A stretch of DNA of 42,382 nt from Candidatus Moraniibacteriota bacterium (lineage in GTDB: Bacteria > Patescibacteriota > Minisyncoccia > Moranbacterales > UBA1568): contig JAHFON010000007.1 of assembly GCA_023261695.1 (NCBI GenBank), forward strand, positions 1 to 42,382. Direction: 5' to 3'. A model generated the notes under the pieces. That model was not told the DNA's origin. It saw nothing but the letters and a program-made list of their open reading frames with translations, and searched no databases. Position numbers and translations under genes: made by a program. This document shows, in pieces, positions 4,729 through 41,816 of this stretch (positions are counted from its first letter, which is position 1; every line of letters starts with the position of its first letter).

Positions 4729-4876
4729 CTTTCCCAGCCAGTTTTCTTTGAGGAGGCTTTTTCATCCGAAGCGGGCAGGGTTTTTTGCTTTTAGCAAAAA
4801 GAGCGAGGATGAAAACTGAACGAGTAAGTTCGCTGGACGAACGAGAGTACTCCGAAAAGAAAACTGGTTAGGAAAG
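4729..4876 (+). other. Structured intergenic element E1 (candidate ncRNA or palindromic repeat element)
   Basis: Closing inverted repeat CTTTCCCAGCCAGTTTTCTTT (4729-4749) / AAAGAAAACTGGTTAGGAAAG (4856-4876): 19 of 21 positions complementary, central 12 bp perfect. Internal hairpins TTTTGCT-TTT-AGCAAAA and GTTCG-CTGGA-CGAAC, and stem TTTTTCATCC/GGATGAAAA. Shares motifs with E2. Confidence 0.7.
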
Positions 4877-39212: not shown

Positions 39213-40892
39213 TTATTCAGCGTCCACTAGGAGCTTCCCTTCCGTCACGAGTTCAATCTCCGCCAGAGTCGTAATGCCTTTGAGCGCTTTGAGAATGCCG
39301 TCCTGTTTCATATTCATCATCCCCTGGCGAGCGGCCGCTTTTTGAATTTCAGTTTCATTGACTTTGTGATCAAAAATCATATCCCGCAGTTCATCGTTAA
39401 CGGCTATCACCTCGTAAATAGCCACTCGGCCGCGATAGCCGGACTGGTTGCAATTTTCGCAACCTTTGCCCTGATAAAAAATAATCGGCTGTTTCGGATC
39501 AAGCCCATAATCAGCCACTTCTTTGGGATTGATCGCGTTAAACAATTCTTGGATATGATTTTTTTGAAATTCCGTCAAAGGAAATTCCACGCGGCAATCT
39601 TCGCAAATGCGCCGCACCAAACGTTGCGCCGCCACCGCCTCCAAAGACGATGCCAGCAAAAAAAATTCCACCCCCATATCTATCAGACGCGGGATGGCCC
39701 CGATAGCGTCATTGGTATGCAACGTGGAGAGAATCAAATGCCCCGTCAGCGCGGCGTGAATGACGAGTTCCGCCGTCTCATTGTCACGCACTTCTCCTAC
39801 CATAATAACATTGGGGTCCTGGCGCAGGATGGAACGCAAACCGCTTGCGAACGTATAGTCTATTTCCGGCTTAATTTGGCTCTGATTAACACCCTCAATA
39901 TAATACTCAATCGGGTCTTCCAAAGTAATGATATTGCGCTCTTCTTTGTTCAATATCTGAAGAAACGCGTACAGTGTGGTTGACTTTCCCGATCCGGTAG
40001 GACCGGTGATCAGAATGATCCCGAACGGCTTATGAATGGCTTCTTCAAGAATAGAGCGGTTTCTTCCGCATAGTCCGAGTTTTTCAATATCAGAAAGACC
40101 GGTGCTCTTGTCCAGCATACGCATAGCTATTTTTTCTCCATCCAAAACCGGCAAACTTGAGACACGCAAATCCACGACGCGTCCGTCTTCGCTCTCAAAA
40201 CGAAAACGGCCGTCTTGCGGTTTGCGTTTCTCGTCAATTTTGAGATTGGATAAAATTTTGATACGCGAGATCACGGCCCGTCCGACTTCCAGCGGAAACA
40301 CGAGTTGGGAACGGAGAATGCCGTCCACGCGAAAACGGACGCGAAAACTTTCATCAATCGGTTCGATATGAATATCGCTGGCTGATCCGTCCAGCGCGTG
40401 CCTGACAATCACATCCACCAGTTTAGCAATCGGGGTATCCTGAAAAGTTTCAACTCCCTGGTTGCTTTTCTTTTCTTTTTTTATTTCCGCGATATCCTCG
40501 GATTCTTCTTTCAAAGAAACGATGGCCTTTTTCAAAGCCATATCCGTGCCGGTGTAATATTGCATAATATCGGAAAAAGTTTTCTCCGATGCAAGGTATA
40601 TTTTAATATTCTTGTGCTCTTTTTCAGACAAAAAACGCAGAACATTGAGCGCTTCAAGGTTCTGCGGATTGACCATAGCGATACAAATGGTATCTCCTTC
40701 TTGGCGAAACGGCACCATACGGTACATTTTCGTCGTATCTTCAGAAATAAGCGCGAACAAAGTTTTATCTATTTCTTTCGGCGCTTTCGGCAAAAATGAC
40801 AACCCCAGCGCTTTGGCCTGCGCCGAAAGAACTGACACATCATCAGTTCTAATTATGGGATTTTCTTTTTTTTTGGATGTTTCCTCGGACAT
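39213..40892 (-). CDS. pilB: Type IV pilus assembly ATPase (GspE/PilB)
   Basis: ILITGPTGSGKSTTLYAFLQIL...ITLEDPIEYYIEGVNQSQI...LRSILRQDPNVIMVGEVRDNETAELVIHAALTGHLILSTLHTNDA; tetra-Cys CEDC/CENC. Start at MSEETSKKK, not 41000. Confidence 0.95.
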   Translation of the reverse strand: MSEETSKKKENPIIRTDDVSVLSAQAKALGLSFLPKAPKEIDKTLFALISEDTTKMYRMVPFRQEGDTICIAMVNPQNLEALNVLRFLSEKEHKNIKIYLASEKTFSDIMQYYTGTDMALKKAIVSLKEESEDIAEIKKEKKSNQGVETFQDTPIAKLVDVIVRHALDGSASDIHIEPIDESFRVRFRVDGILRSQLVFPLEVGRAVISRIKILSNLKIDEKRKPQDGRFRFESEDGRVVDLRVSSLPVLDGEKIAMRMLDKSTGLSDIEKLGLCGRNRSILEEAIHKPFGIILITGPTGSGKSTTLYAFLQILNKEERNIITLEDPIEYYIEGVNQSQIKPEIDYTFASGLRSILRQDPNVIMVGEVRDNETAELVIHAALTGHLILSTLHTNDAIGAIPRLIDMGVEFFLLASSLEAVAAQRLVRRICEDCRVEFPLTEFQKNHIQELFNAINPKEVADYGLDPKQPIIFYQGKGCENCNQSGYRGRVAIYEVIAVNDELRDMIFDHKVNETEIQKAAARQGMMNMKQDGILKALKGITTLAEIELVTEGKLLVDAE

Positions 40893-40906
40893 GTGCGCCT
40901 GATTGC

Positions 40907-41026
40907 AGGCCTTACGCGTTTGAGCGCAGTTCGCGACGCAAGCGAGGAACGGAGTAAGCTGTATGCGACATACAACGGTGAGTACCGGAGCTTGCAACAA
41001 AGAAATGTGCCAAACACGTAAGGCCT
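40907..41026 (+). other. Structured intergenic element E2 (candidate ncRNA or palindromic repeat element)
   Basis: Closing inverted repeat AGGCCTTACGCGTTTG (40907-40922) / CAAACACGTAAGGCCT (41011-41026), 15/16 complementary; further pairing GCGCA/TGTGC; internal hairpin GTATG-CGA-CATAC. Shares ordered motifs with E1 on the + strand. Confidence 0.7.
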
Positions 41027-41030
41027 AAGC

Positions 41031-41816
41031 TTATTGAAATGGATTAGGTTTGCCGGTTTCGCCCTTTTCCAATGTTGACATAGAATTGGTTATCTTGCTA
41101 AGCAAAGTATTGACATTCGAAAAATTAAATTTGGACTGCGAAAAAATGGGATTCTCAAGCGCCGACACTATGGGTCTCGGAGGCAAATAACCGTACTCCG
41201 CTTCAAATGTCCCGGTCAGCCTATCTGTCACCGCAACTTTTCCAGCCTCCGTTTTTTCTAAATTTTCTATGGAAAAAAAGTGTATTTGCTGAAACCGTTC
41301 TATTTGCGCCATCTGGTCAAAAAACGCCTTGATATTCGTGTAAGACCCGATAACGGTTCCCTTAAAAACAAACGTCTTGACCGTGATCGGGGGAGCTACA
41401 TCTGGAACATTGGAGTCAGCAAGCGTTCTCCCTCCGGCGACAAACGATTTCGCGGCGGGCGCGATCAGCGGCGCTTCAGCTTCTTTTGCTACTGGCAAAG
41501 GCTTAAATTCCATTTTACTGATGGCTAAACCAGATCGGGGAGCTAAAAAATTAAATGCGTCTATCACTTGCTCCTGACTCAGTGTTTTGGGTAAATACCG
41601 ATAGATAAACTGCTCCGTTTTCTGTTCCGTGTCCAATACATTATTCAAAGACTTTATATTCGCCACAATTCCGTCCATATCCGCTGCTTTGGATTGCCTG
41701 TCTGAAATTTCCGCATTTTTCTCCATCACCGTGTCAAAGTCCGGTTTGATATAACCGATGCCTAAAATAAGTATCACGACTACGAAAAAGGGAAAAAGTA
41801 ACATTTTTAATCGCAT
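41031..41816 (-). CDS. pilO: Type IV pilus assembly protein PilO-like
   Basis: N-terminal TM, coiled coil, VKTFVFKGTVIGSYTNIKAFFDQMAQIERFQQIHFFSIEN; position between pilN and pilB. Confidence 0.75.
   Translation of the reverse strand: MRLKMLLFPFFVVVILILGIGYIKPDFDTVMEKNAEISDRQSKAADMDGIVANIKSLNNVLDTEQKTEQFIYRYLPKTLSQEQVIDAFNFLAPRSGLAISKMEFKPLPVAKEAEAPLIAPAAKSFVAGGRTLADSNVPDVAPPITVKTFVFKGTVIGSYTNIKAFFDQMAQIERFQQIHFFSIENLEKTEAGKVAVTDRLTGTFEAEYGYLPPRPIVSALENPIFSQSKFNFSNVNTLLSKITNSMSTLEKGETGKPNPFQ

Follow-up and report, generated by a model that had tools for sequence, protein, structure and literature searches.

The hairpin that separates pilO from pilB in this Moraniibacteriota genome, here called E2, is probably a copy of a non-autonomous mobile element of ∼124 nt that is patchily distributed in the Patescibacteria and polar with respect to replication. 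Rather than a device specific to pil, E2 is an ordinary representative of an unusual and apparently undescribed family, for which the pilO-pilB junction is an accidental address. Few bacteria are as small or as hard to study as the Patescibacteria, and this family joins replication polarity, one-ended hugging of gene boundaries and pairing-preserving change of the stem, features that together constrain its movement or maintenance in a testable way. Many operon joints, one of them in a pilus operon, also receive structured sequence from the family, and housekeeping proteins can gain in-frame peptides, as with ksgA.

The hairpin at the pilO-pilB junction

E2 occupies positions 40905..41028 (+) of the window, the whole 42,382-nt stretch of DNA that was analysed, and matches the covariance model of the family (R1) with 129.7 bits (E = 7.8e-28), a score obtained with E2 itself among the training sequences. 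R1 denotes the better-paired strand of the family, which is the + strand of the window and lies antisense to the pil operon. On this strand the outer stem (helix 1) is formed by AGGCCTTACGCGTTTG (40907..40922) and CAAACACGTAAGGCCT (41011..41026), and is paired in 91.3% of cells across 145 aligned copies. The 5' arm is followed by a 1-base bulge (A) and the GCGCA-GTTC strand of a conserved subterminal helix (40923..40932, +), some positions of which are G.U wobbles in many copies (alignments A2 and A3). Further in, GCAAGC (40938..40943, +) pairs with GCTTGC (40990..40995, +) as helix 3, which has compensatory double changes in all 6 of its 6 pairs among the 145 copies, and the apical stem-loop TGTATG-CGA-CATACA (40960..40974, +; helix 6) is paired in 90.7% of cells. 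The inner pairings proposed in the initial annotation are therefore correct, and they are conserved family-wide with compensatory changes. The pil-sense strand of E2 folds at -54 kcal/mol (z = -6.3), a value equalled in 0 of 200 shuffles, and both strands of this copy fold equally well. The single mismatch between the arms is C.A on the + strand and G.U on the pil-sense strand, as had been noted, and this holds for the copy in the window.

The element leaves little of the spacer on either side, and the distances first reported agree with the sequence. The four nucleotides GCTT (41027..41030, -; pil sense) separate the end of the 3' arm from the pilO stop codon (41031-41033), and GCAATCAGGCGCAC (40893..40906, -; pil sense) makes up the 14 nt before the pilB ATG (40890-40892). 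Pfam backs the names PilO, PilN and PilB: pilO (41031..41816, -) matches PilO at 3.1e-6, and pilB (39213..40892, -), a T2SSE/MshEN ATPase, matches T2SSE at 1.8e-128 and has its start ATG at 40892, the same start position as in relatives. An N-terminal extension of PilB, by an open reading frame reaching a TTG at 41000, was considered and rejected; the extension falls entirely within E2 and has no homologue in relatives. An intrinsic terminator was likewise rejected, as E2 has no T-run and a terminator scan gives none at the element, and a promoter scan of the pilO-pilB junction found nothing exceeding chance.

Distribution of the hairpin family

The genome (860 kb, or 0.86 Mb, in 43 contigs; 100% complete), of the Moraniibacteriota type of Patescibacteria, contains two copies of the family, E2 and a second at C6:6689-6812 that matches it at 92% over 98 nt. 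This second copy (L061 6689-6812, contig C6 of G000) sits directly past the T-run of a hairpin resembling an intrinsic terminator, where the gene is antisense to R1. A nucleotide search gave matches in 23 of 95 genomes. The R1 covariance model, built from 25 copies, detected members in 35 of the order's 131 genomes, several of them with at least 27 candidates; across the phylum, 42 of 380 genomes carry the family, representing 36 of 314 genera. Each member is a single hairpin of ∼124 nt, present in 1 to about 40 copies per carrier genome; the upper figure comes from genome G048, in the contig parts examined. Carriers confirmed by the model are recorded as Moraniibacteriota, Magasanikbacteria, Kerfeldbacteria, Sungiibacteriota, Spechtbacteria, Parcubacteria and Peregrinibacteria. 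The sole match outside the Patescibacteria, of 49.5 bits, is in an Elusimicrobia metagenome bin (L263 4872-4977) and is possibly mis-binned or transferred. Pattern matches in cyanobacteria, Rhodobacteraceae, SAR324 and Thermotogales were rejected as members, as all fail the R1 model.

Viral spread was searched for with one degenerate pattern against IMG/VR, which returned no match; a near-identical pattern catches just 28 of 145 known copies. Among the 4227 families of Rfam 15, none matches E2 at gathering score (the best is a chance miRNA, 19 bits against the 79 required), and a scan of the whole window with Rfam 15 returned tRNAs only. On the basis of Rfam 15 and open-access papers, as distinct from the whole literature, the family appears undescribed.

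Conserved fold and strand preference

The family fold is real and supported by covariation. In the 145-copy alignment, which was fitted to the covariance model, 91.9% of cells are paired, both sides have changed in 42 of 44 pairs, and double-change cells number 1576 compared with 470 after shuffling. The covariation score of 0.618 falls to 0.08-0.13 when the pairings are slid, with a drop in the paired fraction to 33-46%. Structure-free MAFFT alignments, made before any fitting, already contained compensated pairs at 29/39 and 31/44 positions.

The two strands of the family are not equivalent. The RNAalifold consensus fold reaches -57.9 kcal/mol for R1 versus -36.8 kcal/mol for the other strand. 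At a two-pair subterminal site the pairs alternate U.G / C-G / U-A and G.U / G-C / A-U, so that R1 is paired in 128 and 135 of 144 copies and the other strand in 48 and 102 of 144. R1 carries G.U over A.C in 104 versus 21 copies, and still in 77 versus 39 when the conserved wobble-rich positions are left out. Covariation and wobble bias thus favour R1 as the likely folded strand. Since the window copy folds equally on both strands, this preference is a statement about the family.

Insertion and persistence of copies

The initial annotation had offered two origins for E2, an insertion at an operon joint or a processing or regulatory hairpin that sets PilB levels relative to PilN and PilO, and had proposed a comparison of the junction in close relatives. 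In 20 relatives pilO and pilB are retained next to each other, with short, unrelated spacers and without the element. Other loci give similar contrasts: one stop-codon site is filled in G001 and G010 and empty in G004, G008 and G005 (26-31 nt spacer), and another locus is filled in G005 and empty in G001, G004, G011 and G006. In G065 an element lies in frame within ksgA (L156 3060-3185, contig C79) and adds ∼40 codons, whereas ksgA of G048 is uninterrupted. Because relatives keep pilO-pilB without the element and other loci give filled and empty pairs, E2 is an insertion, a reading that the second copy in the genome and the dispersed family also bear out.

The regulatory origin fares differently. 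A stable hairpin so close to both the pilO stop and the pilB ATG could influence 30S access or mRNA decay, and would in that case act in cis to tune PilB output. Against this, no other pilO-pilB junction examined has the element, copies of the family lie beside rpsS, rplT, rplC, ksgA, tRNA genes and many other unrelated genes, orientation tracks replication instead of the gene (see below), and the better-paired family strand of E2 is antisense to the pil transcript. A control of PilB levels is therefore a highly improbable raison d'être for E2, although an incidental, putative effect on pilB expression is conceivable.

Nothing beyond the hairpin is common to the copies, orthologous loci aside, and their flanks are not shared as those of a larger transposon would be. 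The flanks contain no target motif, being A+T-rich and G-depleted on the R1 strand, and repeat lengths at the element ends equal those of a flank-swapped null, giving no indication of target-site duplication. One orthologous copy is common to G001, G004 and G008, indicating that copies can persist; this long-term retention is evidence against recent movement. Some orthologous spacers of G065 and G048 (L157/L128 and L171/L098) differ in length by near multiples of ∼125 nt with no match to the model, and these differences suggest decayed copies.

Orientation and position of copies

Copies of the family are oriented with respect to GC skew, and hence to replication. In G048, R1 is on the strand of negative GC skew in 36 of 40 copies (p = 1.9e-7), and in other genomes, both copies of the present genome included, 38 of 43 follow the skew (p = 2.5e-7), for a total of 74 of 83. 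The copies counted are only partly independent, and GC skew serves as a proxy for replication. Where skew and gene direction disagree in G048, skew wins in 9 of 12 cases. Read conventionally, this GC skew gives R1 the same identity as the nascent lagging strand, that is, as the leading-strand template.

The 3' end of R1 lies at gene boundaries. Based on gene calls from an ORF heuristic, it is within 10 nt of a boundary in 90 of 121 copies, compared with 18.4 expected if each spacer is treated as uniform, while just 8 of 121 have the opposite (5') end so near. Of the copies with a gene on the 3' side, 114 of 139 are antisense to it, and in 78 of these 114 the R1 3' end falls -10 to +9 nt from the stop codon (141 copies in the set). 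Sense-oriented copies place this end 4-8 nt before the start codon of rpsS, rplT, lexA, miaA and others, names that were read from N-termini, and further landing places are tRNA ends and terminator ends. The edge rule applies to each of the four gene arrangements and is thus not explained only by a need to keep the next gene's ribosome site. By flank reading, four copies (L130:2852, L135:6419, L104:17173 and L174:2078) are 0-6 nt from tRNA genes, three abutting the 5' end of a tRNA-Leu-like gene and one a tRNA 3' end.

This arrangement bears on the idea that the copies were spread via a structured RNA made from the R1 strand, such as a SINE-like retroelement or an antisense ncRNA. R1 does show RNA-like covariation, wobble pairs and internal loops that are purine-rich and conserved. 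Because most copies are antisense to their 3' neighbor, however, an RNA transcribed from R1 would depend on a promoter of its own, and the junction scan finds none above chance. Reverse transcriptase genes do not track the family either: RVT_1 is present in 14 of 35 carriers and 53 of 96 noncarriers among the 131 genomes of the order, showing no association, and is not found in the copy-rich G048. We consider spread through RNA unlikely.

Divergence of arms and core

In pairs of copies whose cores are 85-90% identical, the outer arms average 50% identity and are often near the 42% background, yet within each copy the two arms stay mutually complementary. Non-orthologous copies with near-identical cores can accordingly have outer stems that are unrelated and still self-complementary. 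With the most master-like bin left out, diverged arms show about 86% pairing versus 57% for arms combined across copies. In recent sets (G031, the present window and G005) the arms remain near one master sequence. Several orthologous loci have arms that resemble each other more than random pairs do, with cores at the random-pair level, and in one old orthologous trio core conservation is 0.93-0.99, equal to or above that of the flanks. A re-making of the outer arms at each insertion was considered and is not needed, because an arm is shared by recent copies such as the G031 set and similar arms are seen at several of the orthologous loci. Most simply read, arms come with the element and then drift with pairing kept, and cores are constrained or homogenized. 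The kept pairing may reflect either selection on the hairpin or hairpin-templated correction.

Old copies with drifted arms but retained pairing, together with the well-conserved core of the old trio and the replication-polar orientation, might also be expected of a DNA site with a function for the host, such as a polar hairpin serving replication, priming or segregation, that spread by its usefulness. Such a site should not be missing from some three quarters of the order's genomes, vary from 1 to about 40 copies, or number just two in the present genome, and we regard a host function of this kind as improbable.

Comparison with known repeat systems

The element is reminiscent of REP sequences, integron attC sites and Rickettsia palindromic elements (RPEs), yet fails defining features of each. 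Hairpins of attC sites and of IS200/IS605 and REP elements are understood to act as shape-recognized ssDNA in step with replication. REPs lie mostly downstream of coding regions, with some inside ORFs, and their GTAG termini often provide a TAG stop (PMC3733652). The family resembles REPs and REPINs in being dispersed palindromes, and REPs too crowd the 3' ends of genes. It differs in size and tag: a REP measures 20-40 nt and bears GTAG or CGTC at the stem foot, compared with one hairpin of 124 nt here, and GTAG occurs near the stem foot in only 4 of 141 copies on R1 and 11 of 141 on the other strand.

An attC site comes after its cassette's ORF, is folded from the strand antisense to that ORF, and is recognized by structure as an ssDNA hairpin. 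Of 30 sedentary chromosomal integrons, 25 have the bottom strand, the one that folds, on the leading-strand template (PMC5371416), the same polarity as shown by R1. Neither strand of any of 141 copies contains the R boxes RYYYAAC...GTTRRRY, however, and the neighbors are housekeeping genes in conserved synteny instead of the cassettes of an attC array or CALIN. Integron integrase (TIGR02249) is above cut-off in 0 of 131 genomes of the order.

IS200/IS605 elements involve hairpin recognition and couple insertion to replication, and their single-strand Y1 enzymes work on lagging-strand ssDNA (PMC6006769). Replication-coupled orientation is common to the family (74 of 83 copies). The differences are the lack of a Y1 HUH transposase and of a conserved flank motif, and a better-folding strand on the leading- instead of the lagging-strand template. 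Within the order, Y1/RAYT (TnpA_REP) transposases occur in 14 of 35 carriers versus 59 of 96 noncarriers (131 genomes), showing no association with the family, and no Y1 transposase (PF01797) is found in the present genome. With attC R boxes, integrase and REP tags absent and Y1 not tracking the copies, the family may work like these systems without belonging to them.

RPEs, palindromes of ∼150 nt found in the small genomes of parasites, insert into genes and keep the reading frame (PMC10969869), as the element in ksgA of G065 does. Compared by description, RPEs are known mainly inside ORFs, in contrast to the present family, most copies of which are at gene edges with a fixed replication polarity.

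Bacterial MITEs (ERIC, CREE-NEMIS and others) are non-autonomous, intercistronic hairpin repeats of ∼100-150 nt (cf. PMC10969869) and so share size, placement and lack of autonomy with the family. A conventional double-stranded MITE that is mobilized by a DDE transposase and duplicates a TA target would also account for the inverted terminal arms and for the TA near both ends in 37 of 141 copies. The terminal repeats of MITEs are conserved, however, whereas here the arms vary and the interior is conserved, the reverse of a transposase-bound TIR; target duplication does not rise above the flank-swapped null; and neither strand-specific wobble nor replication orientation is predicted. No transposase gene is in or near the copies and no autonomous partner was found. 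The MITE interpretation seems quite doubtful to us.

Proposed mode of movement

Orientation and strand bias point to a mobility that would act on one strand, folded as ssDNA at the replication fork. We propose that a protein encoded elsewhere recognizes the R1 strand as a hairpin, by the shape of the fold and by its core sequence, and that the element is inserted next to gene edges, with no detectable target duplication. After insertion the arm sequence would drift while pairing is kept by selection or hairpin-templated correction. At pilO-pilB the element would have filled a short spacer, and any putative effect on PilB output would be a side effect. More tentatively, the family might represent a new class of shape-recognized, replication-polar ssDNA mobile hairpins, essentially restricted to the Patescibacteria, in which one specific end targets gene boundaries (stop and start codons, tRNA ends and terminator ends) and the mobilizing enzyme would be unrelated to RAYT, integron integrase or reverse transcriptase.

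Some genomes across the order (e.g., at G050:C2:245985, G051:C39:8118 and G065:C60:19) encode an extra tyrosine recombinase that is nearer to integron integrases (E about 1e-33 to 1e-40, below cut-off) than the common Xer-like match is, and that does not track the hairpin family.

The window contains a further, separate hairpin, E1 (presumed at about 4729-4876), which folds at -61.6 kcal/mol (z = -5.5) and ends ∼6 nt before an ATG. It was rejected as a member of the E2 family, with an R1 score of just 4.7 bits, and had no match among the loci examined. The tip of E1, as in the E2 family, reads GAGTAAG...GAGTAC.
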